Positions 11,312 through 44,989 of a DNA stretch of 64,000 bases are shown here, in pieces (the stretch's first letter is position 1; each line of letters begins with the position of its first letter). The notes below the pieces were generated by a model that was not told where the DNA came from, made no database searches, and was given only the letters and a program-made list of their open reading frames with translations. Where the stretch lies: contig NZ_UGQM01000001.1 in assembly GCF_900454025.1 (NCBI RefSeq), positions 5,208,001 to 5,272,000 on the forward strand. Reading direction: 5' to 3'. A program made the position numbers and the translations under genes. The stretch is from Mycolicibacterium gilvum. Lineage in GTDB: Bacteria > Actinomycetota > Actinomycetes > Mycobacteriales > Mycobacteriaceae.

Positions 11312-11348
11312 TCGGCCAGACTAGTGCGCCCTGTGCGGCCGACGAACG

Positions 11349-18987: not shown

Positions 18988-19488
18988 ATGACCAAAGCTC
19001 CCAAGCCACTCACCCCCAAGCAGGTCGAGAGCCTCAACTCGAACGCGGTCGGCACCGGCATCAAGTGGATGTCGAAGTTCAACACCTGGGCGTACAAGGC
19101 CACCGGCGGACGCCTCGGCGCGAAGTGGCGCGGCGGGTCGAACCGGTTCTCGGCGCCGCCGCCGGTCGGAATCCTGACCACGATCGGCCGCAAGTCGGGT
19201 GAGCCGCGGGAGAGCCCCCTGCTGTTCCTGCGCGAGGGCGATCGCATCGTCCTGGTCGCCTCTCAGGGTGGACGCGCGACGAACCCGATGTGGTACCTGA
19301 ACATCCAGGCCAATCCACAGGTCACGTTCCAGGTCAAGAACGAGAAGCTCACCCTCGTCGCCCGCGACGCGACCGACGCCGAGCGCGACGAGTACTGGCC
19401 GAAGCTCGACGCGATCTATCCGGATTTCGTGAATTACCGGACCTACACCGACCGCAAGATCCCGATCCTGATCTGCGATCCGGCCTGA
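18988..19488 (+). CDS. ddn: F420-dependent nitroreductase family protein (Ddn-like)
   Basis: 166-residue split-beta-barrel protein of the deazaflavin-dependent (DUF385/nitroreductase) family, resembling Rv3547 Ddn, which activates pretomanid and delamanid and reduces quinones with F420H2. Landmarks: IKWMSKFNTWAYKATGG, ILTTIGRKSGEPRESPLLF (F420 phosphate-binding region), NPMWYLNIQANPQVTFQ and ARDATDAERDEYWPKL. Tyr positions near the C-terminus (IYPDFVNYRTYTDRK) occur where Ddn has substrate-site residues. Third gene of the fadA5 operon. Prodrug activation cannot be assumed, since homologues differ widely in this. Confidence 0.88.
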   Translation: MTKAPKPLTPKQVESLNSNAVGTGIKWMSKFNTWAYKATGGRLGAKWRGGSNRFSAPPPVGILTTIGRKSGEPRESPLLFLREGDRIVLVASQGGRATNPMWYLNIQANPQVTFQVKNEKLTLVARDATDAERDEYWPKLDAIYPDFVNYRTYTDRKIPILICDPA

Positions 19489-19527
19489 CGGCCCGGGAGA
19501 TCCACCCTCGCTCAGCAAACCGTCTAC

Positions 19528-19533
19528 TAGGCT
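19528..19533 (+). promoter_or_regulatory. -10 element, leaderless promoter of polysaccharide island (left)
   Basis: TAGGCT followed by exactly 7 nt and then ATG 19541. This TAnnnT-N7-ATG arrangement is a recurrent mycobacterial leaderless promoter pattern and predicts transcription starting at the A of the first glycosyltransferase ATG. No clear -35 is seen. Confidence 0.5.
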
Positions 19534-19540
19534 TCGGCTT

Positions 19541-20446
19541 ATGACCGGCGCCGGCGGTTCGGACGAGCACAAGGTACGCATCGGCGTCGCAGTCACCACT
19601 GTCGGTCGCTGGGATTCTCTTCGTGAACTGCTGGGTGATCTTGCGGAGCAGACGTATCCCCCGAGTCTGATCGCGGTCGCGCATCACGATGTCACTGCGA
19701 CAGCGGAGTTGGACGACATCGTGAAGGCCTTCGCCGACTCTTTGGAGATCCGCACAGTGGTCAGTCCTCGCGGCATCTCCAACGGGCGCAATGCGGCCGC
19801 AGCTGCGCTGGGAGACGAGGTCGACTGGCTGTGGTTCCCGAACGACACCACCCGTATCGATGCTCAAACCCTCGAGCTCCTCTCCCACCACTGTGTCCCA
19901 CCGTCAACGGCCGTTGCCGCACAGCTGGTGGATCGTGAGGGCCCCAGAAACCCCCTGCCGGTCCCAGGTTCGGCCCTGACCCGCCGCAACGTGTGGGGTG
20001 CGATGGAGCCGGCGACCCTGTTCGAACGCACCGCATTCGAGGCCGCGGGCGGATGGAATCTCGCACTCGGGTCGGGGGCGGACACCCCGTGGCAGTCCGG
20101 CGAAGGGCCTGATCTCCTGCTTCGGATGGCAGAACGCAAAGGCTTCGCCATCGACTGGGTTCCCGACGTCGCGATTCAGGCTCAGACAGAGTTCGCCCAT
20201 CTACCCGTTCACGAACGGCGACGCAAGCAACGCAGTTACGGGCGTGGGCACGGGTATGTGCTACGTACCTGGCGGTACCCGCTCTGGTACAAAGCAGCCA
20301 ATCTCGTGGCCGCCGCACTGATGCCTCTGCGCAAGCCCGAGAAGTTCGGCCCGGGTGAGGCGTTCGCTCTGCTGGTCGGCCGGGCCGAAGGTGTGCTCGG
20401 GCGGCCGTTCACCCGCAGTGATGACCACCGCGCCATCTTGCGATGA
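19541..20446 (+). CDS. Family 2 glycosyltransferase
   Basis: 301-residue GT-A fold glycosyltransferase. It begins VRIGVAVTTVGRWDSLRELL, the nucleotide-sugar binding start, with SPRGISNGRNAAAAAL near residue 75 and a DxD-like WFPNDTTRID near residue 97 for metal-nucleotide binding. The acceptor-side region is TLFERTAFEAAGGWN and GEGPDLLLRM. No TM helix apart from a weak hydrophobic stretch near residue 250 (AANLVAAALMPL) that may peripherally anchor it. It overlaps the secreted glycosidase gene by 4 nt (ATGA). Donor and acceptor sugars cannot be predicted. Rightward operon of the polysaccharide island. Confidence 0.82.
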   Translation: MTGAGGSDEHKVRIGVAVTTVGRWDSLRELLGDLAEQTYPPSLIAVAHHDVTATAELDDIVKAFADSLEIRTVVSPRGISNGRNAAAAALGDEVDWLWFPNDTTRIDAQTLELLSHHCVPPSTAVAAQLVDREGPRNPLPVPGSALTRRNVWGAMEPATLFERTAFEAAGGWNLALGSGADTPWQSGEGPDLLLRMAERKGFAIDWVPDVAIQAQTEFAHLPVHERRRKQRSYGRGHGYVLRTWRYPLWYKAANLVAAALMPLRKPEKFGPGEAFALLVGRAEGVLGRPFTRSDDHRAILR

Positions 20447-21498
20447 CCGGAGGGCGCAAAACCAGAATCTGGCTATCGGCACTACTTCTGATATGCGCCG
20501 GCGTCACCTCTTGCCGAGCGGTCGATCCCCCTGTCGAGATCGGCATGACACTGCATCTGCGCGACAGCGACGCGGCGGCCCTTGATCGGCAATTCGAACT
20601 GATGTCTGCAATGGACGTGCAGTGGGTCAGGGTCGACATCGACTGGTCAGTTGTGGAACGGGAACGTGGACGTTTCGACTGGAGCTTTTCCGACAAGGTT
20701 GTCGAGCTGGCCGCTGCGCACGGAATGAACGTCCTTGCCGTGCTCGGCTTCACACCACAGTGGGCACGGGCGTCGAGTACCCCCGCCACCGAGACAGCGC
20801 ACTACTCCCGGCCCGAGAAGTTGAGCGACTGGGCAGTCTTTGTCCAGACGGCAGCCGAACGTTATGTCCCGCGGGGGATCCGCACCTGGGAGATCTGGAA
20901 TGAACCGAACACCAGCAAGTTCTGGCCGCCGCGGCCCGATGTCAACGAATACGGCCACCTGTTCTGGGTCGCGGCGGACGCCGTGCGCGCCGTCGATCCC
21001 GAAGCCACGCTCCTCATCGGCGGCCTGGGACCGAAGTTCGAAGAGCCCGACGCCGAGGTCCCGCCGACGGAGTATCTGCAACTTCTCTATGCCAACGGAG
21101 CTGCCAAGTACGCGGACGGCATCGCCGCCCACCCGTACAGCTTCCCTTCGCTCCCCACAGACGTCGATCAACGCATGCTCGGAGGTTTCAGGGATCTTCC
21201 GGAGTTACACGCCGTGATGGACCGCAACGGCGACGGGCAAAAGAAGATCTGGATCACCGAGTTCGGCGCGCCGACGGGTACCGGCCCGCACGCAGTGTCA
21301 GACCAGGACCAGGCCGTTGCACTGCTCGAAGCACGTGAACGGCTCGAATCTTGGGATTGGTCGGGCCCTCTCATCTACTACGAACTGGTCGACGGCGGCC
21401 CTGATCTCAGCGACACCGAACAGAACTTCGGGGTACTTCGCGAGGATCTGTCCCTGAAACCGGCAGCAGAGGCACTGCTGGACGGCGCTTCTGGTTGA
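20443..21498 (+). CDS. Secreted lipoprotein glycoside hydrolase (GH39/PslG-like)
   Basis: 351 residues. Residues 1-24 form a lipoprotein signal (RKTRIWLSALLLICAGVTSC) with lipobox VTSC and lipidated Cys24. The rest is a TIM-barrel hydrolase of clan GH-A: acid/base Glu154 in EIWNEPNTSKFW and nucleophile Glu273 in KIWITEFGAPTGTG. This combination is seen in GH39 proteins such as PslG, an endoglycosidase encoded in the Psl exopolysaccharide operon of Pseudomonas. Here too it is embedded among glycosyltransferase and Wzx/Wzy genes, so trimming or releasing the nascent polysaccharide outside the membrane is the likeliest role (inference). Translationally coupled to the GT2 gene. Ends 16 nt from the convergent flippase gene. 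Confidence 0.78.
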   Translation: MTGGRKTRIWLSALLLICAGVTSCRAVDPPVEIGMTLHLRDSDAAALDRQFELMSAMDVQWVRVDIDWSVVERERGRFDWSFSDKVVELAAAHGMNVLAVLGFTPQWARASSTPATETAHYSRPEKLSDWAVFVQTAAERYVPRGIRTWEIWNEPNTSKFWPPRPDVNEYGHLFWVAADAVRAVDPEATLLIGGLGPKFEEPDAEVPPTEYLQLLYANGAAKYADGIAAHPYSFPSLPTDVDQRMLGGFRDLPELHAVMDRNGDGQKKIWITEFGAPTGTGPHAVSDQDQAVALLEARERLESWDWSGPLIYYELVDGGPDLSDTEQNFGVLREDLSLKPAAEALLDGASG

Positions 21499-21514
21499 GG
21501 AAGACCCATCGCCG

Positions 21515-23044
21515 TCACGGACCGCGCCTGTCGGCCGGCACCAGCAGCATCATCAATCCCGACACCAAAGGCCTCAGTCGTGAGGGCGCCCTGTCGATCA
21601 GTCGTGCCGGAATACCCGGGGCGACCATCGGGATCACCGCGAGCAGTCGAATTGCCACCAGGAAGGTCAGAACAGCGGCGGGGATCGCGATCCACAACGA
21701 GGCGATGCCGCCCCAACCGAGCACGATGCCGTAGGCGACTCCGGCCTGCGCGACAGCAGCCAAGGCGATCGCTGCGAGCGCCCGATAGGGCGGCGAAACG
21801 TTCAGACGTCGTGTCACGTAGAAGGTCTCGATGAGAACGACGGTTACCTGCACTATGCCCCGGGACCATGCGGCGCCCATCAGCCCGAACCGGGGGACGA
21901 GAAGGAAGCCGAGCGCGAGGGTGCCGAGCAGACCAATCCCGTTCGACATCAACAGGAAGCCGGTCTTGCCGATGCTCTGCAGGAGGTAGAAAGTCGTGAC
22001 GCCCAGGCTGCTGATGGCTGCGGCGATCAGCAGAACCGATGCGACGGGAACCGAGTTCTCGAATGCGCTACCGAACAGAAGCGGCACCAGCACGGGGGCA
22101 AGCGCCGCCAAACCGAGACACAGCGGAACGATGACCATCGCAATGAGCGCCGTCATCGTGCGGTACAGGCGGTGCATATCCTCCCGGGCGCCGAGGCCGT
22201 GCTGCTCGCTGAACCGGGGCAGCAACGCTGAAAGTAGAAGGGGCGGTAGCTGTACCGCCATTTCGGCCACGGTCACCGCGGCCGCGAAGAACCCGACTGC
22301 CTCGAGCCCCGTGTAATGCTCCAGGAAGAGAACCTCGGTGCGGCCGAACACGAGGCCACCCAGCACAGCCGTGGCCCAACTCGTGAGCGCAAAACGGGTG
22401 ACCTCCTGCCGCAGCGATGGACTCACCTTCGGCTTGATACGCAGCAGACGACCAATCCTGGCTGCCGGCAGCAGGTTTCCGGCGACGTAACCGGCCAGAG
22501 CACCCGGGATTCCGAAGAACCAGGCACCCGCCGTGATCACCACCAGTTTTATCAAGGCCGACACTGCCGACAAGCGCGCCAGCTCTCCGAAGCGCTGCTC
22601 GCCTCTCAGGTAGAACTGATAGACCTCCGCCATGCGCCAGAGGATGAACCAGATCAACGCCACTGCGATCACGATGTCGCGAGAAGACTCCGAACCCGCA
22701 TCGGTCGCCTCGCGGCCCGGCCAGTAGAGGTAGGCGAAGAGTAAGAGAGTCCCGACGACCGCGGCAAGTATCGACAGTCTGGTGGTGGCTCCGATCAGCC
22801 CGTCGGCTTCGTCGTCGTCTCCCGCGGCACGCAGCTTCGGTATGAACCGTTGTTGCACGATACCGATACCCAATCCGGCGACCATCGACCCGATTGTCAC
22901 GCAGAAGACCACGTAGGCAAGGACTCCCAAGTCGTCCGGACCGAGTAGGCGGGCTGTGATCGCGTTGCCGATGAATCCGGCAAGCGCGACCGCAGCACCG
23001 GACCCGAACCCGAGCATGGTGTTTCTGATGAACGATGGCGGCAT
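21515..23044 (-). CDS. Wzx-type polysaccharide flippase
   Basis: About 509 residues, 12-14 hydrophobic segments; a MATE/MVF-superfamily oligosaccharide flippase that would move undecaprenyl- or decaprenyl-linked repeat units across the membrane. The N-terminus (SFIRNTMLGFGSGAAVALAG, then NAITARLLGPDDLGVLAYVV) carries the ARxLGPxxxG signature of this family. Positively charged loops (RRLNVSPPYR, RLLRIKPKVSPSLRQEV) alternate with the helices. Start chosen at ATG 23044; GTG 23053 is also possible. It follows the minus-strand GT2 gene by 22 nt, so wzz-wzy-GT2-wzx read as one leftward operon. Flippases of this type are unusual in mycobacteria. Confidence 0.83.
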   Translation of the reverse strand: MPPSFIRNTMLGFGSGAAVALAGFIGNAITARLLGPDDLGVLAYVVFCVTIGSMVAGLGIGIVQQRFIPKLRAAGDDDEADGLIGATTRLSILAAVVGTLLLFAYLYWPGREATDAGSESSRDIVIAVALIWFILWRMAEVYQFYLRGEQRFGELARLSAVSALIKLVVITAGAWFFGIPGALAGYVAGNLLPAARIGRLLRIKPKVSPSLRQEVTRFALTSWATAVLGGLVFGRTEVLFLEHYTGLEAVGFFAAAVTVAEMAVQLPPLLLSALLPRFSEQHGLGAREDMHRLYRTMTALIAMVIVPLCLGLAALAPVLVPLLFGSAFENSVPVASVLLIAAAISSLGVTTFYLLQSIGKTGFLLMSNGIGLLGTLALGFLLVPRFGLMGAAWSRGIVQVTVVLIETFYVTRRLNVSPPYRALAAIALAAVAQAGVAYGIVLGWGGIASLWIAIPAAVLTFLVAIRLLAVIPMVAPGIPARLIDRAPSRLRPLVSGLMMLLVPADRRGP

Positions 23045-23066
23045 CAGTACCACCGGCCTGCGGAGC

Positions 23067-23987
23067 TCATTCCGGGCCGCGTCGCCGAGTCGCGCCTGCG
23101 CGGATACGTCCCGCTGAGAGCTTCAACAGTGATTTCACGACGCTTGCCCACGCGAGGACGCCCGGACGTCCGTAACGGATGCCCGCCGCGACGGACCTGG
23201 CAACGCCTCGGTAGGACCCCGCGCCCAGCGCTGAGCCGACTGGAGAGGTCAGCATGTAGTCGCCGCGAACGCGCTTCGACTCGTCGGCGAGTTCACTGAT
23301 GCCCCAGGCGATCAGCTCCGCGCTTCGGTCCACGCCCGACCTGGACAGCGACGCCGGGGTCCACATGATGTCCACGAGGGGCTCGGCCACCTGTATCACG
23401 GGTATGTCGGGGAAAGCACGCCGGACTTCGATCAGCCACTTCGGATCGTCGTGAATGGAGCCGGCTGCCACCGAGAGCGGGACCGCCTCGGCCACCGAGC
23501 GCGGAAAAACCAAGGTCGAGGTCTGCACCATGTTGAAGGCGCGCTGCGCGCGGAACTCGAACAAGAAAGGAGCGACGGGTTCGTGCGGGGTGATCAGGGT
23601 GCGCGGACCGATGATCGGTTCCCGGCCGTCGATGTGGACCGAGAAGCGTGATGCGAGAATCCATTTGTCGCCATCCGGTGCCGCAGCCAACTGAACGGCC
23701 AGCTTGTCCTGGCGCCAGACGTCGTCGTCGTCGAGAAACGCGATCACAGTGCCCACTGCGGATTCGACTCCGACATGTTTGGCCAAGCTGGGTCCCACCC
23801 GCCCCGACGTCCGCACTACGCGTACCGCAGGCGACTCCGGTAGATCCGGCTCACCGTCGGAGTCCACCACCACGATGATCTCGAGCGGCGGATACGACTG
23901 GCGCAATGCCGATTCGACTGCAGATCTCACACTCGCTCGGCAGATGGTGGGTATGACCACGCTGACCGATCTCTCAGATGGGCGCAT
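23067..23987 (-). CDS. Family 2 glycosyltransferase
   Basis: About 306 residues, GT-A fold. SVSVVIPTICRASVRSAVES opens the nucleotide-binding domain, IIVVVDSDGEPD follows, and the metal-binding acidic cluster is IAFLDDDDVWRQDKL near residue 90. The C-terminal third (SVAAGIRYGRPGVLAWASV, then RIRAGATRRRGPE) is amphipathic and basic, suitable for membrane association. Start set at ATG 23987, which has GGGAG about 8 nt upstream; in-frame ATGs at 24008 and 24014 also exist. It overlaps the 3' end of the polymerase gene by 14 nt or more. Sugar specificity unknown. Confidence 0.82.
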   Translation of the reverse strand: MRPSERSVSVVIPTICRASVRSAVESALRQSYPPLEIIVVVDSDGEPDLPESPAVRVVRTSGRVGPSLAKHVGVESAVGTVIAFLDDDDVWRQDKLAVQLAAAPDGDKWILASRFSVHIDGREPIIGPRTLITPHEPVAPFLFEFRAQRAFNMVQTSTLVFPRSVAEAVPLSVAAGSIHDDPKWLIEVRRAFPDIPVIQVAEPLVDIMWTPASLSRSGVDRSAELIAWGISELADESKRVRGDYMLTSPVGSALGAGSYRGVARSVAAGIRYGRPGVLAWASVVKSLLKLSAGRIRAGATRRRGPE

Positions 23988-25371
23988 CAAGCCGGCTCCC
24001 GCGGACATCTTCATGTCGAGTCACGATCATCACCGCGAAGATCAACCCACTTATCGGGAAGAGCTGCAGGTTGGGAAGTAGCGCCCACACCGCTTCGGTC
24101 GTCGCAGCGACGAAAAACGCGATCAGATAGCCGAAGCACGCGATCTGCTGACTGGGAATCCGGAGGGCACGGGTCGACTTGATCGCTGCCACCAGCAACA
24201 GTGTCAGCACCGCCAACCCCAGGAGCCCTGACTTCACCAACGTGTCGACGACCATGTTGTGACCGGTACCCACATAGGCCCATTTGGCGATGTTCGCAGC
24301 CTGCTGAGCATCATTGAGAAACCAATTGACGCCCATTCCCACCGCGGGTGATTGCTGCCAGACCTTCAAGCTCTCCGCCCACACCAGGGCACGTTCGGTG
24401 AATGCCGAAGGGTCCCAGTCTGCGAACGGAACCGCGAACATCAAGGCCGCGCTCACCCCGACGAGGGCGGTACCGGCCGCCCGAACCGAAATACGCGCGA
24501 TCGATCGGAACCAGCAGAACAACCACCACATGGCCACCAGAGCAGCGGCGATGAGGGCGGTCCTGGAAGCTGCCGCGATCATGGTTGCGGCGAGGATGAC
24601 ACCGACGGCCAGGCGCAATCTCCGTTCGGGAATGAGCGGCACCAGCGCGAACGCGAGTGCGCAGTACATGCCCAGAACGTTGGCGTGCCCGAACGGCCCG
24701 GCCAACTCCCAGCCCGCGACGATCGCCTTCTCCGAGGCCGTGTTGTACATCATGAACTCTGGGATGATCAGCCCGCCGATGAGCGAGTACACCGAGATTG
24801 CTGCGACTGTGTACGGCACCCATTTCAGGCCGGAGATCGGAGCGCCGACATTCCAGATCGCCAGGACGAACAAGTTTGCGAGAAGAATCTTCGGCAGATC
24901 CGCCGGCGGAGGCACTTGGGGGCTGACCAGAAAAGGGACGTTGACAGCGAGCAACAGCACAAACAGACCGGTGACATCCCGGTCAGGATGGCCGCGCATC
25001 GCTGCGACGACGGCAGTCAATGCGAGCAGCACCGCCGAGCCGCCAAGGCTGGCCAGTTGGGCCAGCGGCAGATCCGAGGATGTCTGAGCCTCTCCCGGCG
25101 GTAATACCGGCGAGTGTTCGACCATCAGATAGGTGATCAGATCGGGGATGACCACAAGTGCGATCGCACCCACTGTCAACAGGGCGAATGCGCGGTCATT
25201 CTTCCGGAAATCCGTTGCCGTCGAGCGGCAGACACGCGGGAGCGCCGCTACATAGACTCCGAAGGAACGGACACGGTCTGTCGTCCTTGTGGCATGCGCT
25301 TCGCCGTCCTTCGGCACCGCTGCTACGAATGTGGTTTGGTGTCTACCCTGTTCCAATTCGTGCGGATTCAT
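23974..25371 (-). CDS. O-antigen ligase/Wzy-like polysaccharide polymerase
   Basis: 465-residue polytopic membrane protein with about 12 TM segments after a 60-residue cytoplasmic N-terminus. It has the layout of the WaaL/Wzy (PF04932-type) family: a short motif ELAGPFGHANVLGMYCALAF, then the large periplasmic loop between TM pairs with FTERALVWAESLKVWQQSPA (Arg-rich start) and GMGVNWF, ending GTGHNMVVDTLVKSGLLGL, where Arg and His are the usual catalytic candidates. In context with Wzx and Wzz it most likely polymerises lipid-linked repeat units. Ligation of a chain to another lipid is the alternative. It starts 15 nt after the wzz stop. Confidence 0.78.
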   Translation of the reverse strand: MNPHELEQGRHQTTFVAAVPKDGEAHATRTTDRVRSFGVYVAALPRVCRSTATDFRKNDRAFALLTVGAIALVVIPDLITYLMVEHSPVLPPGEAQTSSDLPLAQLASLGGSAVLLALTAVVAAMRGHPDRDVTGLFVLLLAVNVPFLVSPQVPPPADLPKILLANLFVLAIWNVGAPISGLKWVPYTVAAISVYSLIGGLIIPEFMMYNTASEKAIVAGWELAGPFGHANVLGMYCALAFALVPLIPERRLRLAVGVILAATMIAAASRTALIAAALVAMWWLFCWFRSIARISVRAAGTALVGVSAALMFAVPFADWDPSAFTERALVWAESLKVWQQSPAVGMGVNWFLNDAQQAANIAKWAYVGTGHNMVVDTLVKSGLLGLAVLTLLLVAAIKSTRALRIPSQQIACFGYLIAFFVAATTEAVWALLPNLQLFPISGLIFAVMIVTRHEDVRGSRLDAPI

Positions 25372-25386
25372 GGCTGCGCGGACCGT

Positions 25387-26793
25387 TCACTTGCCGTGGG
25401 CGCCGCGGCGCCAGCTCGCACGCTGAGCGCGGGAGCCTGCTCGGGCCTCGCCCGCGGAAACGTCGTAAGTGTCTCCGGAGTCGCGCTTCGTGGGGGGCGT
25501 CATCGTCAGAACCGCGCCGAGCAGGGGCCCGCCGGCTCGTGTCAGTCGATGAACTGCCTCGGTGAGCTGTTTGCGCGTGGTCTTTCCGAATCGTGCGACC
25601 ACGAGCACGCCCTGAGACCTCGAAGCCAGCAGGGCTGCATCCGTGACAAGCAGCGACGGGGAATCGACGATCACGTAGTCGAACTCCCTACTGAGCTCTC
25701 CCAGAACCTCACCGGTCACCGGCGATTCGAGAAGCTCGGTGGGATTCGGCGGAACAGGCCCGGATGTCAACGCCTTCAACCGGGGAACGCTCGTGTCCTG
25801 CAGCGCTTCTCGGATGCTCGCCTCTCCATTCAACACACTGCTGAAGCCCACCTGCCCGGGGAGCTCGAGATACGCAGCGACCACCGGCCGCCGAAGGTCG
25901 GCATCCACGATGACCACCGAGTGGTTCGCCTCGGCAAGTGCCAGCGCCAGATTGACAGCGGTGGTCGTCCTGCCGTCATCGGGTCCACAGCTGGCGATCA
26001 GAAGCACACGTGGCCCATCGGCCACCTGGAGAAACCGCAGGTTGATCCGGAGCTCGCGGTAGGCATTGGCGACCTTCGACCGATCCGTGTCGAACGACGG
26101 TAGCGGACCCTTTGCCCGCTGTTCTTCGAACGGAACATCGGCCAGCAGTCCGACCCCCGTCACCTTCTCCAGGACATCTGCGCTCTTGACCGTGTCGTCC
26201 ATCCGGTCTCGGACCAACGCGATGCAGATCCCCAGCAGTGCGCCTGTCACCGCAGCAATGGCGAGCATCCGCGTCGTCTTGGCACTCATCGGGCTGTCGG
26301 GCAACTCGGCTCGCTGCTGGATGACCACGCGGGCATTGGGCGGAGCACCCAGCTCTGGTGTCTCCAGCGCTGCAGCCATCACAACGAATTCGTCGGCCAG
26401 CGTGTTCGCGATGTCGCGGGCGCGGGACGCCGACGAATCCGTCACCGCGACATCGATGAGGACCGTGTCCGCCGGCACGGTGGCTTCGATCTTCGCCTGC
26501 AGGTCGGCCGCAGTCATATCGAGCCCCAGTTTGTCGACAGTGCGCTGGGCGAGTAGCTCGCCCATCACCAACTCGGTGTAGGAGAGCACGCGACGTTCCG
26601 CAAACAGGCCGCCGTCATACGTCTGGGTATTGGTGCCATCGGACGTGGTCGCCACGAACATTCGCGTTGTGGCCTGGTACTGCGGCGTGACCACGAACGA
26701 GTAAGCGAACGCGGCCAACACGGCAAGGACGGTTGCGCCGCAAATCAACTTCCACCGCGAACGCAAGATCTGCGCGAAGTCCTTGACAGTCAA
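25387..26793 (-). CDS. Wzz chain-length determinant fused to tyrosine-kinase-like ATPase, altered Walker A
   Basis: 468 residues. Residues 1-200 are a Wzz domain: TM1 about 16-36, extracellular helices, TM2 about 175-194 preceded by a Pro-rich AELPDSPMS. Residues 245-440 are a BY-kinase/MinD-like domain with NAYRELRINLRF, Walker A' VVIVDADLRRP (Asp297, Asp299) and Walker B FDYVIVDSP (Asp377). The Walker A reads SCGPDDGRTTTAVNLA: the usual Gly-Lys-Ser/Thr lysine is Arg275. The C-terminus is Arg-rich with a single Tyr instead of a tyrosine cluster. It may control chain length without normal phosphotransfer. TTG 26793 is the start: no ATG or GTG lies in frame after the upstream TAA. Confidence 0.85.
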   Translation of the reverse strand: MTVKDFAQILRSRWKLICGATVLAVLAAFAYSFVVTPQYQATTRMFVATTSDGTNTQTYDGGLFAERRVLSYTELVMGELLAQRTVDKLGLDMTAADLQAKIEATVPADTVLIDVAVTDSSASRARDIANTLADEFVVMAAALETPELGAPPNARVVIQQRAELPDSPMSAKTTRMLAIAAVTGALLGICIALVRDRMDDTVKSADVLEKVTGVGLLADVPFEEQRAKGPLPSFDTDRSKVANAYRELRINLRFLQVADGPRVLLIASCGPDDGRTTTAVNLALALAEANHSVVIVDADLRRPVVAAYLELPGQVGFSSVLNGEASIREALQDTSVPRLKALTSGPVPPNPTELLESPVTGEVLGELSREFDYVIVDSPSLLVTDAALLASRSQGVLVVARFGKTTRKQLTEAVHRLTRAGGPLLGAVLTMTPPTKRDSGDTYDVSAGEARAGSRAQRASWRRGAHGK

Positions 26794-27157
26794 CTGCGAC
26801 TCTTCATCGCCGATACACTCCCTTTATTCTCACCGCCTGGCGTCCGCATCGAAGGCGCGCACAGACGTGTAACGCTATCCCACAATGGTTCGCCCGGCGG
26901 CGATACTCATAGAGCCCCGCGCCGCTGTCCGCCTGTGGCAGCCCGCTCGACGGTAATTGCCTGTCGAGGGCATGTACCCGCCGGTATAGTCCTTTCCCTG
27001 TTGGGATTACGAAGCTCGAACACCGAAAGTGGAACCGCGTGCATCCGGTCAGTTCAGTCATGTTGACGTTTTCCCGACAGCCGCCGATGCAAGTCAGCGA
27101 GAGATCCGCCGCCGACCTACACGATTCACGCGGGCCTGATTCGGGCGAGGTCAGCGC
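26794..27157. other. 364-nt divergent intergenic region, wzz operon versus bcsB-like gene
   Basis: No gene recognised. It must contain promoters for the leftward wzz-wzy-GT2-wzx operon and the rightward bcsB-like gene. A TATAGT at 26984-26989 is a possible rightward -10. AAAGGGAG, read on the minus strand about 25 nt before the TTG start of wzz, could be part of its translation signal, though it is far away. The stretch is visibly less GC-rich than the genes around it. No clear operator palindrome found. Confidence 0.4.
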
Positions 27158-29179
27158 ATGAAGCGCCGTGGCATTCGGGTCCTGTCAGCGATGTTGATCC
27201 TCGTCGCTCCGTCCCTGTCCGCGGGATTGCACTCCGGGGTGGCGCACGCGCAGCCAGACGTCGCCGCAGAAGCCGCCGCAGCTCCAGGCCTTCGCCTTCC
27301 CTGGCGAGCTCTCGGGCTGGAACCGGAGACCTTCCTCGGCGCGGACAGCAGTACGAGTTTCGTGATACCGGTCCCCCCGGGTCTGACGCCGACACGTCTT
27401 CAGGGACTCGTGCACGCGCCCATGAACATCGAGTCGAGCTTCCTGGAGGTCAAAGACGGGGACGGAAGGTTCCTTGCGGCCGTCGATCTCCCCCGGGCGA
27501 GTTCGGCGCAAGCGGTCACCCCGCTGGACGTCGATATCTCCGCAGCGCAGGTCCGCGCCGAGGCGGCTGATCTCACTTTGACGGTGAGGCCGCTCGACAA
27601 TGCCGATCAGTTCTGCGGACCGTTGCAGCAGGTGCACATCAGTGACCTCGCGACGGTCTTCACCGGCGCCGAGTCCTCAGCGGCCACCATTGCGAACTTC
27701 TTTCCGCCTGTCCTCGAGCGGGCGGTCATCTACGCGCCTGACGACGCCGACTCAGCGGAACAGCAGGCGGCTCTGACACTGGCGTCGACGGTTACGCAGC
27801 TCTATCGCCCGCAACCGGTGGAGGTCCGGGTGGTCAATCATCCGCGCGGCGCGACCCCGCCCCCGGCCGGACAACTCGGGCGTGCCGTGGTGGTCGAGAC
27901 CGGTGGACAAGCCGGCCTCGACGTCAGGGCACCCGGAAGTCCGGGAGCCTACCTACGGGTCGCTGGTCAGGGGGACGAACTCTCGACGCAGGTGTCACTT
28001 CTGGTCAACCAGCTCCAGTCCCTCGTTCAGACCGCGTCGTCCAGGATCGACGCGGCCGGATCCGTAGAGCCCGCCCGGTTGGACAGTCCGACCTTCGGTC
28101 AGTTGGGTATGACCGGCAGAACCGATGTTCTTCGCACCGGGAGTTTGAGGGTGGCGACAGACCGCTCAACCCTTGGTGGCCGGATCGACAAGGTCACGGT
28201 GAACTTGAAGGCCGATTACACCCCGGTGCCGACCGACGATTCCGCAAGTGTCGTGATCCGTTCCGACGATGTCGTGGTGTACCGGACTGCGCTCGACAAC
28301 TCCGGACGTCTCGACGCGACGTTCGACATGAGCAGCCAGACTTTCGGCCAGTGGCTCAATCTCGACTTCGCCCTCACGTATACGCCGCAGGAATCGTGCG
28401 GGCCCTTCATTGCGCCCATCACCTTCCAGGTCGATCCGCAGTCGACGCTGACGATCAGCCGCGGCGGGCCGCCCCTCCACGGTTTCGGGGCAGTGCCTTC
28501 AGAGTTCAGCCCACGCTTCCTTGTCGCTTTCGACGGGAGCAGCCCAAATCAACTGGCCTATGCCGCAGCAGTCGTCGTCTCCATCTCGCGACTCACCGGC
28601 GCGCCGTTGCTTCCCCGGGTAGTCGACCTCAAAACAGCGGTCGACGCGAAGGCAGGCGCGCTCATCGTCGCCCGAACCGGAGCACTGAAAGAAAGCTCGC
28701 TGAGTCCACCGCTCAGCGGTGAGGGCAGTTCGGTCGAAGTCGGCCTGCCCGTAGAACTCCGCGCGGATTTCGAGGATGGTCTCGGATCTATTCAGGCTTT
28801 CGCCGACCGACCCCGCGACCGCTCAGTTGTTCTGATCACGACGACAGATGCGTGGCCACTCGTGGATCCGCTCTTCAACTACCTAGGGCAACTCGAAGGC
28901 GGCTGGTCCGCCCTGACCGGCGACGTTCTCGCCGCAGGGACAGGGGGCGACCCCACCAACGTCGCGATCCGCGACGCCGCCGACCCCTCGCAAGGATCAG
29001 CTGTTGAGCAGGGCACCCACACGGACTTTGTGGGCAGGTGGGCTCCCGTCGGCGTTGCCGTTCTCATCGCCGTCTCAGTCGCCGCAATCGCCGCGTACCT
29101 ATGGTCGCGAAGGCGTAGGGCCGCAACCGTGAATGCGAACGGCAGTGAAACTTCCGACGCCCTCGAGGGCCGGAGTTAG
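27158..29179 (+). CDS. BcsB-like exported, C-terminally anchored polysaccharide protein
   Basis: 673 residues. Signal peptide to about residue 31 (LHSGVAHAQPD, AxA site), a long extracytoplasmic part, then one TM helix (PVGVAVLIAVSVAAIAAYLW, about 635-655) and a basic RRRRA stop-transfer. The extracytoplasmic part shows two alternating units: jelly-roll-like (SSTSFVIPVPPGL ... LVHAPMNIESSFLEV; DKVTVNLKADYTP ... LDFALTYTPQESCGPF) and Rossmann-like (TTTDAWPLVDPLF). That is the domain plan of the cellulose synthase subunit BcsB. A BcsA synthase is absent from the window, so it may serve another exported glycan. ATG 27158 has GAGG 7 nt upstream. It ends overlapping the convergent GT4 gene by 4 nt. 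Identification is by architecture. Confidence 0.6.
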   Translation: MKRRGIRVLSAMLILVAPSLSAGLHSGVAHAQPDVAAEAAAAPGLRLPWRALGLEPETFLGADSSTSFVIPVPPGLTPTRLQGLVHAPMNIESSFLEVKDGDGRFLAAVDLPRASSAQAVTPLDVDISAAQVRAEAADLTLTVRPLDNADQFCGPLQQVHISDLATVFTGAESSAATIANFFPPVLERAVIYAPDDADSAEQQAALTLASTVTQLYRPQPVEVRVVNHPRGATPPPAGQLGRAVVVETGGQAGLDVRAPGSPGAYLRVAGQGDELSTQVSLLVNQLQSLVQTASSRIDAAGSVEPARLDSPTFGQLGMTGRTDVLRTGSLRVATDRSTLGGRIDKVTVNLKADYTPVPTDDSASVVIRSDDVVVYRTALDNSGRLDATFDMSSQTFGQWLNLDFALTYTPQESCGPFIAPITFQVDPQSTLTISRGGPPLHGFGAVPSEFSPRFLVAFDGSSPNQLAYAAAVVVSISRLTGAPLLPRVVDLKTAVDAKAGALIVARTGALKESSLSPPLSGEGSSVEVGLPVELRADFEDGLGSIQAFADRPRDRSVVLITTTDAWPLVDPLFNYLGQLEGGWSALTGDVLAAGTGGDPTNVAIRDAADPSQGSAVEQGTHTDFVGRWAPVGVAVLIAVSVAAIAAYLWSRRRRAATVNANGSETSDALEGRS

Positions 29180-30303
29180 TCTCGGCCGCGCGGAGGGTGC
29201 CCACTGAGGTCGGAGGCCACCGCCTCAGCAGCTGACCGCAATGACAGCCCTGCCTGTCGTGATTCCACGTAAGCCCTTCCGCGGGAAGCCAGCTCAGCGG
29301 TTGCGTCTGCGTCGCGACAGTAGCGCCGAAGCAACTCAGCCAACGCACGGCGGTCGTACGGGTCGAAGTATGCAGCGCCATCACCACACGTCTCCCTCAG
29401 CGCGGCGATGTCCGAGGCAAGGACCGCGGTACGGGACGCCATCGCCTCGATCGGTGGCAACCCCGCACCTTCGTGCAGCGACGGCATGACGAGCAGGTCG
29501 GCTTGCGCCACCAGCGAGCGAAGGACGTCGAAGTCGAGGCGTCCCATGACGACGACCCGGTCGCCCATTGTCTCGGCGAGCCGGGTCACGCGCTCGTCGC
29601 CACCGCGCAGCGCCTCGCCGCTTCCGGCGATCACCAGTTTGTGAGGGACATCGCCGCTTACATCTCCGAACGCTTCCATCAGAAACGGTAGGTTCTTGTG
29701 CCACTTGGCGTTGCCGACGTAGAGCACGTAGGGGGCGGTCACAGGCGAAAGTCCGGGCTCGGCAGCGTCGAACCACTCCTCACCGACCGGGATCGGCGTC
29801 ACACAGGTACGCGCCGCAGGCGCGAACGCTTTGAGTGTGTCCACCGTCGCCTGCGACGGTGTGAAGATGAGACGGCTCCGCCGTGCATCGAGCGTGAGCA
29901 TCGTCCTGGCGTAGTACTTCCGGGCCGTACTCATTCCGCTGATCGTCTTGTCCATCACGTGCAGGGTGTCGTGCACGGTGACGAACAACTGCATCTTCCG
30001 GTGCGCCGGCCGCAGTGCGGTCAGCGGGAACGGATAATGCGGAACCCACAGGCCCCTCGGCCGCGCGGAGCGCACGGTCTGATCCCAAACCCGTTGCTCT
30101 GCCATGGAATACATCGGTGCCGTGGCCTGCTCGACAAGCACAGTAGTCGTGTCGCGAAGGGCCGGCGCGGTCTGCCGGCCGACCAGCACGCCGAGCGAGA
30201 GCCGACGCTCGGCGAACGTCTGCTCCAGCTCCGGAAGTAGCAGCCCGATGTAGGTCCCGATTCCGCTCTGCCGAATATGTCGGGCGTCGAAGAGCAGGTC
30301 CAT
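29176..30303 (-). CDS. Family 4 glycosyltransferase
   Basis: 375-residue GT-B glycosyltransferase. N-terminal acceptor domain (MDLLFDARHIRQSGIGTYIG, with the glycine loop GIGTY), donor domain from about residue 190: PYVLYVGNAKWHKNLPFLMEAF, KLVIAGSG, and the retaining GT4 signature SLHEGAGLPPIEAMASR (E-x7-E). The IRQSGIGTYIG opening is shared with WbaZ-like mannosyl- and rhamnosyltransferases. It starts 3 nt after the epimerase stop, so the two are one operon. Cytoplasmic, probably membrane associated. Sugar donor unknown. Confidence 0.85.
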   Translation of the reverse strand: MDLLFDARHIRQSGIGTYIGLLLPELEQTFAERRLSLGVLVGRQTAPALRDTTTVLVEQATAPMYSMAEQRVWDQTVRSARPRGLWVPHYPFPLTALRPAHRKMQLFVTVHDTLHVMDKTISGMSTARKYYARTMLTLDARRSRLIFTPSQATVDTLKAFAPAARTCVTPIPVGEEWFDAAEPGLSPVTAPYVLYVGNAKWHKNLPFLMEAFGDVSGDVPHKLVIAGSGEALRGGDERVTRLAETMGDRVVVMGRLDFDVLRSLVAQADLLVMPSLHEGAGLPPIEAMASRTAVLASDIAALRETCGDGAAYFDPYDRRALAELLRRYCRDADATAELASRGRAYVESRQAGLSLRSAAEAVASDLSGHPPRGRD

Positions 30304-30306
30304 CGG

Positions 30307-31260
30307 CTAGGTCAGGCGCCCTTCCAGATCGGGAAGGAAATCCGGGTTGCCCCACATCCGTTTGAGTGTCTCGTCCAGCTCGTGCTGCGGGCTCCATCCG
30401 AAGGTGTCGCGTATCCGGGTGATGTCGGCACCGAGGAACGGACGGTCGACCGCACGCATGCGTCGCTCGTCCTGCCGCACTTCGAAGTTCAGACCGAGGA
30501 CCGAACGCATCCGGTCGACGATCTCGTCGACCGAATACTGCTGTCCGCTACCGAGATTGACAACCTCGCAATGACCCGGCTCTGGGGCGGTGCCCAACGC
30601 GGCAGCGGCGAACCCGCTCGCGGCGTCCAGCACGTCGATGTAGTCGCGCTTGGGCCACGTGTTGCCGAGATAGATCGCCTCCGGGTTGTCCCGCAGCTGG
30701 ACGACGATGGCAGGTAGAAGATGCGGGTTCGTCTCGCCAGGACCGATGACGTTGAACAAGCGGACGATGACGCCGGAGAGATTCCTGCTCTCGGCGAGTG
30801 CCCGCAGGTAGACCTCACCCTGCTGCTTCGTGTAGCCATAGATGTCGACCGGCTCCACCACAGATTCGAGTTCACGATGGGCGGCTTCGTCCGGTCGGTA
30901 TACGGCACCACTGCTGGCGAACACAAAGCGGGTTCCCGGCGCGCAGGCGGCCAAGAGGTTCACCGTGCCTGTGACGTTGGTGGCCACGGCGTTGGCCGGG
31001 TCGCTGTCGCACTCGGGGATGTAGTGGATCGCCGCGAGGTGGACGATCACCTCTGGTGCGAAATCGTCGATCAACGCGCGCGTCGCCGCCGCATCGCGAA
31101 TGTCGACCCTGCGAAACGCGAATCCGTCCGGTTCCCCTTCCAGCCAGTCGGGCGTGCCGTACCGGAGCAGGTCGGCGACGAGCACTTCCGCACGGTCCTT
31201 GAGCGAGCGGACCAGTTGCTTGCCGACGAATCCGGCGCCGCCGGTGATCATTACCCGCAT
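30307..31260 (-). CDS. NAD-dependent sugar epimerase/dehydratase (extended SDR)
   Basis: 317-residue extended SDR acting on a nucleotide-activated sugar. N-terminal TGGAGFVGKQLV (GxxGxxG), an acidic ADLLRYG for NAD specificity, HLAAIHYIPECDSDP, the catalytic triad FASSGAVY (Ser) with YGYTKQQGE (Tyr-x3-Lys), and the sugar-nucleotide segment RLFNVIGPGETNPHLLP. UDP-glucose/galactose 4-epimerase, GDP-mannose 4,6-dehydratase or a related enzyme would all fit. ATG 31260 has the near-perfect AAGGAG site at 31264-31270 (minus strand). It supplies a precursor sugar to the island's transferases. The IS110 element lies directly upstream and may separate it from its native promoter. Confidence 0.85.
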   Translation of the reverse strand: MRVMITGGAGFVGKQLVRSLKDRAEVLVADLLRYGTPDWLEGEPDGFAFRRVDIRDAAATRALIDDFAPEVIVHLAAIHYIPECDSDPANAVATNVTGTVNLLAACAPGTRFVFASSGAVYRPDEAAHRELESVVEPVDIYGYTKQQGEVYLRALAESRNLSGVIVRLFNVIGPGETNPHLLPAIVVQLRDNPEAIYLGNTWPKRDYIDVLDAASGFAAAALGTAPEPGHCEVVNLGSGQQYSVDEIVDRMRSVLGLNFEVRQDERRMRAVDRPFLGADITRIRDTFGWSPQHELDETLKRMWGNPDFLPDLEGRLT

Positions 31261-31310
31261 GAACTCTCCTTAATCCGCTGATATAGATCGAGTTGGTCCT
31301 TCTCAAATGC
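31251..31310 (-). pseudogene. Possible 3' remnant of a gene cut by the IS element
   Basis: On the minus strand an open frame entering from the IS side reads EAFEKDQLDLYQRIKESSCG then TAA at 31251-31253, overlapping the epimerase start by 10 nt. Normal residue composition and the operon-like overlap suggest the last 20 or so codons of a gene whose 5' part was removed or displaced by the insertion. Short and unsupported by any match; chance is a fair alternative. Confidence 0.22.
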
Positions 31311-31398
31311 CTCCGGAGGTGTCAGGAAGGGATCTGTAACTGATTCCTTTCGGGGTCCGTGTGTTGACGCACGTGGACCTCCTGACACACCCCGGAGG
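31310..31398 (+). promoter_or_regulatory. Long hairpin masking the transposase ribosome-binding site
   Basis: CCTCCGGAGGTGTCAGGA (31310-31327) can pair with TCCTGACACACCCCGGAGG (31380-31398) with one or two interruptions, enclosing about 52 nt. The right arm contains GGAGG directly before the GTG start (31398), so readthrough transcripts from outside would hide the start region, a known way insertion sequences limit expression. Direct repeats of CCGGAGGTGT in the two arms are also present. Confidence 0.5.
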
Positions 31399-32621
31399 TG
31401 TTTGTTGTGTCTGTGCATGGAGCTCCAGTCACGTCGTCCACCATCGTCGTTGCCGTCGATGTCGGCAAGACTTCTGCAGTGTTTTCGGTGACCGACGCGG
31501 CTCGACATCGATTGCTCACGCCGTCGGAGTTCGCGATGAACCGGTCGGGTTTGATCGCTGCGACGACTCGCGTGATGGCCGCGGTGCCTGCGTCGGGGCA
31601 GGTCAAGGTCGCCGTGGAGGCTGCCGGCCATTATCACCGACCAGTGCTCGACCATCGGTGGCCCGAGGGGTGGGAAGTGGTGGAACTCAATCCCGCTCAT
31701 GTCGCCGAGCAACGCCGAGTGCAGGGCCGGCGACGGATCAAGACCGACGTCATCGACTTGGAGGCGATCACCGAACTCGTGCTGAGTGGACACGGTTGCT
31801 CGGTCGTCGACCGTGATGTCGTGATCGGCGAACTCAGTGCTTGGGCTGCGCATCGGAGCCGACGAGTGGCCACGCGCAGTGCGACGAAGAACCAGTTGCT
31901 CGGTCAATTGGATCGGGCGTTTCCCGGACTGACCCTGGCGCTGCCCGACGTGCTGGCCACCAGGATCGGCCGGCTGGTCGCCGCCGAATTCTCCGACCCG
32001 GCCCGTCTGGCAGGGCTCGGAGTCAGCCGGCTGATCCGGTTCGCCGCGACCCGGGATCTGCAGCTGCGTCGTCCGGTCGCGGAGCGTTTGGTCGCTGCGG
32101 CCCGCGATGCACTGCCGACCCGCGACGCGATGATCGCCCGCCAGATCCTGGCCGCCGACATGAACTTGCTGGCCGACCTCGACGACCAAATCCAATCCGC
32201 GGAGGCCGCACTGGGAGAGCTGCTACCGCGCAGCCCCTACGCGACGTTGACCTCGGTGCCGGGCTGGGGCGTGGTGCGGGTATCCAATTACGCTGCTGCC
32301 CTTGGTGACCCGAAGCGGTGGCCGGGACCGCGGCAAATCTATCGTGCGTCGGGGCTGTCTCCGATGCAGTACGAATCGGCGCACAAGCGCCGCGATGGCG
32401 GCATCAGCCGTGAAGGCAGCGTGGCGCTGCGCCGCGCCCTGATCGACCTCGGCATGGGCCTGTGGCTCAGTGAACCGGCAGCCAAGACCTACGCCCACGG
32501 GCTAAAGGACCGCGGCAAGCCCGGCGGCGTCGTCGCCTGCGCGTTGGCTCATCGTGCCAACCGCATCGCTCATGCACTGGTTCGCGACCACGCCACCTAC
32601 GAACCGACCCGCTGGGCCTGA
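31398..32621 (+). CDS. IS110-family transposase (DEDD)
   Basis: 407-residue recombinase. The N-terminal RuvC-like DEDD domain has Asp21 (VVAVDVGKTSA), Glu74 (VAVEAAGHYH), and Asp117/Asp120 (RRIKTDVIDLEAI). The C-terminal Tnp_20 domain has TLTSVPGWGVV, IYRASGLSPMQYES and DGGISREGSVALRRAL, with a conserved Ser (about 327, possibly 318) as the nucleophile candidate. All family motifs are present and the frame is intact, so the copy is probably functional. GTG 31398 is the furthest start; GTG 31407 and 31413 are alternatives. IS110 enzymes work with an element-encoded bridge/seek RNA (established), which directs attention to the flanks. Confidence 0.93.
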   Translation: MFVVSVHGAPVTSSTIVVAVDVGKTSAVFSVTDAARHRLLTPSEFAMNRSGLIAATTRVMAAVPASGQVKVAVEAAGHYHRPVLDHRWPEGWEVVELNPAHVAEQRRVQGRRRIKTDVIDLEAITELVLSGHGCSVVDRDVVIGELSAWAAHRSRRVATRSATKNQLLGQLDRAFPGLTLALPDVLATRIGRLVAAEFSDPARLAGLGVSRLIRFAATRDLQLRRPVAERLVAAARDALPTRDAMIARQILAADMNLLADLDDQIQSAEAALGELLPRSPYATLTSVPGWGVVRVSNYAAALGDPKRWPGPRQIYRASGLSPMQYESAHKRRDGGISREGSVALRRALIDLGMGLWLSEPAAKTYAHGLKDRGKPGGVVACALAHRANRIAHALVRDHATYEPTRWA

Positions 32622-32659
32622 ACCCCTGACACCCACCGCGAAAGGACCGAATCAGACCC

Positions 32660-32800
32660 TTCACAACCCCTGTCGGTAAGTGCCACGCTAAGAGGACGGG
32701 ACGAAGGGCCGGATCAGATGCCGTATCCGCTATGGCGGACCCACCGGGTCACGCCGAGGCTAGCTTGGCACCCGGCCCTTCGCCTTTACGGCAGCCCGAA
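32660..32800 (+). ncRNA. Candidate bridge (seek) RNA region of the IS110 element
   Basis: Downstream of the transposase lie interleaved complementary arms: GTGCCACGCTA (32680-32690) with TAGCTTGGCAC (32761-32771, one mismatch); CGAAGGGCCGG (32702-32712) with CCGGCCCTTCG (32772-32782, perfect); TGCCGTA (32719-32725) with TACGGCA (32787-32793, perfect); and small hairpins CCGC-TATG-GCGG and GACCC-ACC-GGGTC between them. The A-B-A'-B' order means a pseudoknot or alternative folds. Dense structure in the 3' flank is where IS1111-type elements carry the guide RNA. No transcript evidence. Confidence 0.4.
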
Positions 32801-32955
32801 CCACGCCAGATAACCCACCGAGGTTGCATACGTCAGCGTGGGCGCCAGGCACCCGCCCCCAACCCAGCAGCACCACCGACCGCACGAAATCACGCCCCGC
32901 CTCGGGACGTAGGCCCACTACGACCTTCAACACCCTTGACTCGCCCTACAGCCAG
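32801..32955. other. Non-coding C-rich stretch downstream of the IS element
   Basis: 155 nt without a supported gene, markedly C-rich on the plus strand. It may be the rest of the IS right end or remnant of displaced operon DNA between the GT4 gene and the epimerase. Nothing else recognised. Confidence 0.35.
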
Positions 32956-34059
32956 CTAGCGGTGGCCCGCTACAGAGCAGGCGTGCTTCTCCAGCGTTTC
33001 CGCAACCTGGTTCCAATCGAGCGATGTCGCACCGCGCAGGCCGGCTTCCGAGAAGCCTTCCCAATCGTCCTTCGCTGTGGCCGCCACCATGGCATCTGCG
33101 AAATCGGCCGGTTCGGTGCCGCAAACAATGCCGGACCCGTACTGCCTGACCACGTCCCGGCCGCCGTTCTCGGAAAAGTCCGCGGTCACCACCGGTGTCC
33201 CGCTTGCCATCGCCTCGGCGATGACTCTCGGGAAACCCTCACGGCGACTGGGCATCCCGAGTAGCGCCGAGTGGGCCAGAAGTTCGATCTTCTCTGCCTC
33301 GTCGACCGAGCCGAGGACCCTGATGCGCGAGGCGACGGGCGACTGCGCGGCATAGCTCACGATCTCCTCCCGCGCCGGGCCGTTACCGGCGATCACCAGA
33401 TCACCGGGGAAGCCACGATCGGCCGCGAGTGCGAACGCATCGACCAGCAGCGTCAAATTCTTGTGTGGCGCGAGCCTCCCGACGTACAGAATCCCGGAGC
33501 GCTCAGCACGGGGAGTGGACCGGTATCGCGCGGCAACGATACCGCTCGGTAGGACACCGCAATCCCGACCGGACTGTGAGCGGATAGCGATGGCGACCGC
33601 CTCGCTGACGGCGAAGTTCATCCCGACCCACTTGGGCAGCTGCGATTGCAGCAATCTGAACAGGCGGTCCTCGCGAATCTCGCACCAGTGCACAGCACTG
33701 CGAGCGCGAATCTTTCCGGGCAGCGCCGGGATGTGCATCAAGGGCCACTGGTTCATCAGGATGAAGTCGTGCTCCCCACGGGCCGCCATCCTGCGCACAT
33801 CGGCGCTGAACTTCGTGATGTCCGTCCAGTCCCGGCGCAGCGCGGCGATCTTGGGCGACATGTACCGGCCTCTGTTGGTGTGCCGCAACACCCGCACGCC
33901 GTTGATCATCTCGTCAGAAGGCAGCCCTGGTTCATGGCCGATGCAGTGGACGTCGACCTGGTGGCCACGCCGCACCATCGCCTCGGCGAGCTCCTGGAAG
34001 AACACTTCCTGACCGCCGACATGAGGAAAGTACAGCTCGGTGAGGAAAGCGAACTTCAT
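32956..34059 (-). CDS. Family 4 glycosyltransferase
   Basis: 367-residue GT-B enzyme. N-terminal KFAFLTELYFPHVGGQEVFFQ (GG loop), donor-binding domain from about residue 185: RSGILYVGRLAPHKNLTLLVDAFA, DLVIAGNGPAREEI, RIRVLGSVDE and the GT4 motif PSRREGFPRVIAEAMASGTPVV (E-x7-E). It belongs to the same polysaccharide island and strand as the epimerase and GT4 genes beyond the IS, so it was probably the first gene of that operon before the insertion. The 207-nt region upstream (34060-34266), divergent from the GAF gene, should contain its promoter; none is obvious. Substrate unknown. Confidence 0.86.
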   Translation of the reverse strand: MKFAFLTELYFPHVGGQEVFFQELAEAMVRRGHQVDVHCIGHEPGLPSDEMINGVRVLRHTNRGRYMSPKIAALRRDWTDITKFSADVRRMAARGEHDFILMNQWPLMHIPALPGKIRARSAVHWCEIREDRLFRLLQSQLPKWVGMNFAVSEAVAIAIRSQSGRDCGVLPSGIVAARYRSTPRAERSGILYVGRLAPHKNLTLLVDAFALAADRGFPGDLVIAGNGPAREEIVSYAAQSPVASRIRVLGSVDEAEKIELLAHSALLGMPSRREGFPRVIAEAMASGTPVVTADFSENGGRDVVRQYGSGIVCGTEPADFADAMVAATAKDDWEGFSEAGLRGATSLDWNQVAETLEKHACSVAGHR

Positions 34060-34266
34060 GGGCGATCACTCGCCCGCGCCACTGGCATCAGTCCAGTCCC
34101 CCTCGCCCCGAATCGAAGCCCGATGCTACCCGGGCACATCGAATCCGGAAGACGTTTGCTGAGTGTCGTCATCACCCACCGCCCGTGAGGTGTCACGAGT
34201 GCACGCTCCCCGGCATTCGACTTCAACCAGGTACGTGGCCAGACATGCTCGATTATCGTTGCGAAG

Positions 34267-34962: not shown

Positions 34963-34978
34963 CGCGCGACGAACCGGA

Positions 34979-44982: not shown

Positions 44983-44989
44983 CCGCGTC

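Follow-up and report, generated by a model that had tools for sequence, protein, structure and literature searches.

A probable Wzx/Wzy-dependent heteropolysaccharide locus in the cholesterol cluster of Mycolicibacterium gilvum, with a core that seems to be exchanged at a few sites

What does a block of polysaccharide genes make in the middle of a mycobacterial cholesterol cluster, and how did it come to lie there? We analysed a stretch of 64,000 nucleotides from Mycolicibacterium gilvum (contig NZ_UGQM01000001.1, positions 5,208,001 to 5,272,000; hereafter the window), in which domain searches revealed that ten polysaccharide genes and the transposase of an IS110 element fill the block between ddn and a short-chain dehydrogenase/reductase (SDR) gene. 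With a probability of roughly 0.78, we propose that this locus is a Wzx/Wzy-dependent heteropolysaccharide assembly system, which would evolve by exchange of its core at a few sites. The gene families, their linkage, their restricted occurrence and the occupancy of the sites were established by sequence and fold. In the following list and throughout, G numbers denote genomes and L numbers loci; the five core genes are wzx, a GT2 gene, wzy, wzzK and bcsB, and the five outer genes gt2a, gh39, gt4a, the epimerase gene and gt4b.

18988-19488: ddn, left flank of the block
19482..34980: insert at site A (the ddn / SDR junction), from alignment with the empty site in G085
19541..20446, plus strand: gt2a, putative GT2-like glycosyltransferase, outer (PF00535, E 0.0019, below cut-off)
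20443..21498, plus strand: gh39, predicted GH39 / PslG-like lipoprotein glycosidase, outer (PF01229, 8e-9; PslG 5bx9, E 6e-15)
21468..29274: core block, with no alignment at site A in G099 or G027
21515..23053, minus strand: wzx, MOP-family flippase, core (PF13440, 4e-17; 13 hydrophobic stretches)
23067..24014, minus strand: GT2 glycosyltransferase, core (PF00535, 5e-15)
23974..25371, minus strand: wzy, Wzy_C-domain polymerase/ligase-like protein, core (PF04932, 6.6e-12; 12 hydrophobic stretches)
25387..26793, minus strand: wzzK, polysaccharide co-polymerase of Wzz plus bacterial tyrosine kinase (BY-kinase) type, core (PF02706, TIGR01007)
27158..29179, plus strand: bcsB-like gene, BcsB-fold protein, core, divergent from wzzK (fold search)
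29176..30303, minus strand: gt4a, GT4 glycosyltransferase, outer (PF13692, 1e-23)
30307..31260, minus strand: GalE-like sugar epimerase/dehydratase, outer (PF01370, 5e-46; TIGR01179, 2.4e-45, below its cut-off)
31274..32960, plus strand: IS110 element between gt4b and the epimerase gene (PF01548; transposase 31398-32621)
32956..34059, minus strand: gt4b, GT4 glycosyltransferase, outer (PF00534, 1.6e-27)
34267..34962, plus strand: GAF-domain protein of 231 residues (PF01590, 5.8e-16)
34979-35884: SDR gene, right flank of the block

A previous sequence-only reading of this DNA had placed the same gene set between ddn and an SDR gene like Rv3548c, and our searches recover it, gt2a being a weak assignment. 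The extent given there, 19541-34059, holds for the gene block but not for the insert: the ddn and SDR parts lie 5 nt apart in the empty site of G085, and the bounds of the insert are thus about 19482-34980, which takes in a GAF-domain gene left unlisted before. The reading was also right that the island holds no enzyme to transfer the first sugar phosphate, and priming from elsewhere is possible, as two candidate genes discussed below indicate. The ten reading frames are all open, and scans of the window for Rfam families (at the gathering threshold) and for tRNA gave no matches.

The flippase expected of a Wzx/Wzy pathway is present as a MOP-family protein, and WzzK, with a PF02706 match of 8e-10 and two hydrophobic stretches, has the features of a co-polymerase and matches Wzc/CapB. 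The BcsB-like protein carries hydrophobic stretches near both ends (5-24 and 624-651) and adopts, at only 13-15% identity, the whole-length BcsB fold of the E. coli protein (PDB 9fmt and 6yg8); a sequence search of the PDB with the BcsB profile retrieved nothing at E 1. Among the outer genes, the PslG-like protein shows a GH39-type domain with two catalytic glutamates, which we take to lie in the WNEP and WITEFG-type motifs found in 18/18 sequences, and its lipobox was read by eye.

In WzzK the P-loop reads GRTTT, with an arginine in place of the Walker A lysine of BY-kinases, while Walker A' and B are retained (VIVDADLR and DYVIVDSP). None of 19 aligned sequences, the window's included, has lysine at this position (16 arginine, 3 threonine), and the 120 best database homologues, again with the window's, comprise 100 with arginine, 11 with threonine, 4 with histidine and 5 with lysine; a more distant relative of the L040 type keeps the lysine. 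The C-terminal tail has one tyrosine in the window and a YY pair in many relatives. The Walker A element of P-loop kinases is called universally conserved in PMC8517177, and we count a Wzz-kinase family that seems mostly to have lost this lysine among the most novel points of the locus.

Linkage between these genes recurs well beyond the window. Among 297 sampled genomes of the genus, Wzy orthologues (E 1e-30) occur in 22; comparison of the rows by eye places Wzy less than 4 kb from a close BcsB, measured between starts, in 21 of these, all except G066. WzzK adjoins bcsB in 20/20 of the loci with the highest scores against the window's BcsB, a selection which favours the window's type. A Wzx, Wzy or Wzz homologue within 10 kb was found in 27 of 40 named loci, some of which end at contig ends, and 34 have either such a homologue or an enzyme of the PF02397 family. 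All ten genes occur together in 8 of the 40 (partial genes at stretch ends counted), and a chance grouping was rejected on this ground; in 7 of these 8 the site A flanks, fadA5 and SDR, are not in view. BcsB itself is more widespread, with matches at E 0.001 in 184/297 genomes; at least 58 genomes, the window's included, have a match at 48% identity or more among the matches listed, the others lying at 28-37%. At the level of the order, 17 of 200 genomes gave a match to the BcsB profile; 4 of the 17 belong to other genera and score lower. A stretch with three diverged Wzy homologues was also observed (L069, G066:C37:116000-135900).

The locus is accessory. FadA5 and the SDR gene lie on one contig in 120 of 148 genomes, and on different contigs in 11 more; the start-to-start distance in the 120 has a median of 3.0 kb, being below 2.2 kb in 36 and above 12 kb in 9, and it is 17.6 kb in the window. 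Comparison of this interval in 14 other genomes gave the ten-gene set at site A in a single one, G040, where neither ddn nor IS110 was detected. The island has a GC content of 0.644, lower than the 0.673 and 0.680 of its flanks, and at third codon positions GC is 0.73-0.81 in the ten genes, compared with 0.89-0.92 in p450, fadA5, ddn and the first SDR gene and 0.795 in the second SDR gene. The sequence-only reading, which had supposed an accessory system and regarded presence of the same set in most mycobacteria, with normal composition, as fatal to it, is therefore upheld in this respect by the restricted occurrence of Wzy, by a composition below that of the flanks (the second SDR gene excepted), by the empty site in a relative and by an interval whose content is not general.

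Its further suggestion of a single island inserted once did not survive comparison with near relatives. Among the 148 genomes G027 and G099 are the closest to the window by fadA5 (97-98%), and these two, together with G141, carry gt2a, gh39, gt4a, the epimerase gene and gt4b at site A; the core is missing there, and only about 125-185 nt separate the stretches that align to gh39 and gt4a. A tree of gt2a, epimerase, gt4b and gt4a groups the window with G027 and G099 (100/100). The tree of wzy, wzzK and bcsB places it together with five others, G056, GF69, L024, M. tusciae L026 and G125 (100/100); a grouping with G027 and G099, picked for the test after inspection of the identity table, is rejected (delta log-likelihood 470, approximately unbiased test p 1.5e-69). 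The trees hold 17 rows, with proteins taken as best-hit stretches and with sparse outer-gene data in three of the rows; since the core of G027 and G099 lies at another site, the conflict compares homologous cores and not one position. At the level of these sequence trees, core and outer genes demonstrably have different histories, the outer genes being shared with the fadA5-closest relatives. One recent foreign island was rejected as an explanation, the outer genes being common to the window and its close relatives.

The other core type of G027 and G099 stands beside a TetR regulator gene (44389-44982), which by its place we take to be kstR2-like, about 15 kb beyond the window's core. Two further sites can be placed in the window:

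44982..44994: site B, empty in the window, with other cores in relatives
11345..11350: site C, where the alignment stops in G056 and G084, seen from one edge only

Site B lies between the TetR gene and an SDR gene (44990-45781). In G099 it holds an insert of 7.9 kb with another flippase, a GT4-like protein, wzy, wzzK and bcsB; occupation is visible from both edges in G099, G141, M. vaccae L051 and G082, and from one edge in G027. The core in G082 is more distant, its Wzz being 29% identical to the window's. At site C the alignments of G056 and G084 stop at 11347-11349, where a thiolase-like gene ends; about 2.5 kb beyond this point a type I cluster is found. Sites C and B may correspond to the PPE63 and PPE64 places of M. 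tuberculosis. Two recurrent sites of the cholesterol cluster (A and B) are seen from both edges and a third (C) from one. A close BcsB lies within 31 kb of fadA5 in 8 of the 31 genomes that have both, against 0.32 expected at random (binomial P 8e-10); in 14 of the 31 the two lie on different contigs, so that no distance can be given. The P value overstates the evidence, because the 31 kb limit was set with the data in view and the genomes share ancestry. The varied sites and cores are the better argument for docking in the cholesterol cluster, and the locus appears to evolve through swapping of its wzx-GT-wzy-wzzK-bcsB core at a few sites, in the manner of capsule-type switching. Site A was also found with other cargo, of about 5.6-6.4 kb and with no matches to the exopolysaccharide references, in G121 and G087 (L073 and L074).

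The GAF-domain gene is a possible part of the polysaccharide system. In many related loci a homologue of about 48-54% adjoins bcsB or a PF02397 gene, and site A holds closer ones (68-71%) in G099, G027 and G141. The association is loose, because G082 (67%) and G037 (62%) have the gene at site A but no outer genes there, and no match to it was found in the GF69/G040 island (L025, L075).

Two PF02397 genes lie elsewhere in the genome, at C1:2.208 Mb (L065) and C1:1.54 Mb (L064). The L065 enzyme is 49-52% identical to a primer that follows bcsB at a distance of about 1 kb from its end in L024, L026, L027, L029 and L030. That of L064 is 31-38% identical to the primers of these five loci and 76-82% to one near a close BcsB in L050 and L058; its neighbours encode a UDP-sugar dehydrogenase, a GT4, a GDP-mannose dehydratase (Gmd), an epimerase, a UppS-like prenyltransferase and a flavoprotein, the last two being 65% identical to genes which follow the primer in L024. 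Because the primers of both loci and the neighbours in L064 resemble genes of bcsB-linked loci, parts of the polysaccharide system may be dispersed in the genome. PF02397 occurs in 231/297 genomes, comprising 22/22 with Wzy and 209/275 others. As to their own surroundings, L064 (G000:C1:1532000-1551999) appears as a second glycan locus with transposases, and the L065 enzyme (L065:6775-11751) lies between rpsB-tsf and an amidase gene, neighbours that were read by eye.

From known pathways we infer the polymer itself and each of the following steps. Synthesis of the repeat unit would begin with a polyprenyl-phosphate sugar-phosphate transferase encoded elsewhere, and the glycosyltransferases would extend the unit with sugars shaped by the epimerase. 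Wzx would then flip the unit and Wzy polymerise it, with the Wzz-kinase controlling chain length; outside the membrane the BcsB-fold protein may grip the chain, the least certain step of the mechanism, and the PslG-like lipoprotein may trim it.

Several observations weigh against this assembly system. The island holds no PF02397 primer; the AlphaFold model of Wzy has a mean pLDDT (predicted confidence) of 52, too poor for use; gt2a, at 60-74% identity across nine aligned orthologues, gave a weak match in comparison with the GT2 profile, so that its assignment as a glycosyltransferase from sequence is weak; 6 of the 40 named loci have no Wz or PF02397 reference match; three close BcsB loci (L089, L090, L093) have no wzzK in their short flanks; and G066 has Wzy matches with no BcsB among the matches listed. 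Moreover, PF04932 (Wzy_C) includes polymerases and ligases alike, and the sole NCBIfam match of Wzy is to an O-linking oligosaccharyltransferase (E 9e-4, far below cut-off). Wzy could on this account be an oligosaccharide ligase, and the product of the locus glycosylated proteins or a short lipid-linked glycan instead of a long polymer; we consider this unlikely, given that both the constant neighbourhood of Wzz and bcsB in the best-scoring loci and the PslG-like hydrolase in the island fit a polymer. The IS110 element, too, may disturb expression. It sits between genes whose aligned parts are only 17-30 nt apart in G099 and G027, where no IS110-like insertion is seen, and two more genomic copies at about 100% identity, from which its approximate ends were set, suggest recent movement. 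A locus decaying or silenced through the cutting of its gt4b-epimerase-gt4a row is nevertheless quite improbable, with ten frames open and the element intergenic.

Cellulose requires separate consideration, as BcsB belongs to its secretion complex in E. coli. Cellulose has been reported in mycobacterial biofilms (PMC7952908 and PMC6364259), with putative components in some other mycobacteria (PMC6364259), and PMC12167362 describes M. tuberculosis as lacking recognisable BcsA and BcsB and the mycobacterial machinery as unknown. The island genes include no BcsA synthase, and a cellulose operon was rejected on this ground. The BcsB-like protein could still partner a BcsA-like synthase encoded elsewhere, making the locus partly a cellulose-type pathway, and a genomic BcsB paralogue does adjoin a GT2 synthase at C1:620 kb. 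This paralogue, however, already has a synthase of its own, whose homologue appears in only 2 of the 40 named loci, there beside a second BcsB, compared with the 27 that have Wzx, Wzy or Wzz; we regard such a partnership as very improbable. The paralogue, its GT2 synthase and a PMT_2-like protein (L066:7383-12445) form a synthase-type system apart from the island. More distant BcsB homologues in L095 and L096 also adjoin a GT2 synthase, and the short flanks of L089, L090, L093, L094, L097 and L098 show neither wzzK nor synthase.

Returning to the Wzx/Wzy-dependent system, a BcsB that appears to have separated from cellulose synthase to serve a Wzy pathway is also counted among its most novel points. 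A more specific proposal, which we advance tentatively and hold to be less probable than its failure, is that environmental mycobacteria have a Wzy export route of their own: a BcsB fold freed from cellulose synthase would partner Wzz and Wzy and guide the chain below the mycomembrane instead of a Wza-type protein, the Wzz-kinase would work without its Walker A lysine, and species would swap entire cores at docking sites within the cholesterol cluster. Mycobacterial capsules are conventionally regarded as made of alpha-glucan and arabinomannan. How a polymer crosses the mycomembrane is a question that this defined set of genes, for which other cores are available in named species that can be cultured, makes testable by gene removal. 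Our results further suggest that the type of surface glycan is swappable between mycobacterial species, and that the label of cellulose synthase subunit may often cover mycobacterial proteins of another pathway. Within the open-access PMC literature, no description of the locus was found among the matches listed.

Among known systems, Psl of Pseudomonas aeruginosa likewise combines Wzx/Wzy-type assembly with the GH39 hydrolase PslG, which the island's glycosidase matches in sequence; the mycobacterial island differs in its BcsB-fold protein, and no Wza-type gene was recognised among its genes. The wps clusters of Actinoplanes missouriensis are also actinobacterial and hold Wzx, Wzy, Wzz and glycosyltransferases, with a glycoside hydrolase in wps-1, whose mutant forms distorted sporangia (PMC13390465). 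That hydrolase is, however, a GH26, the wps clusters have sulfotransferases, and the term BcsB is absent from the main text consulted. The BcsB of the E. coli cellulose complex shares the whole-length fold, whereas the island protein has no synthase and stands beside wzzK and wzy. WzzK, of 468 residues, has the kinase domain and Walker A' and B in common with the BY-kinases Wzc and CapAB, but the Walker A lysine is replaced in 115/120 of its best homologues, the window's counted. In the capsule-type switching of Klebsiella and streptococci, polymerase and flippase sets are exchanged at fixed chromosomal places of the cps loci; the comparison made here is between species, and the sites lie within a catabolic cluster.

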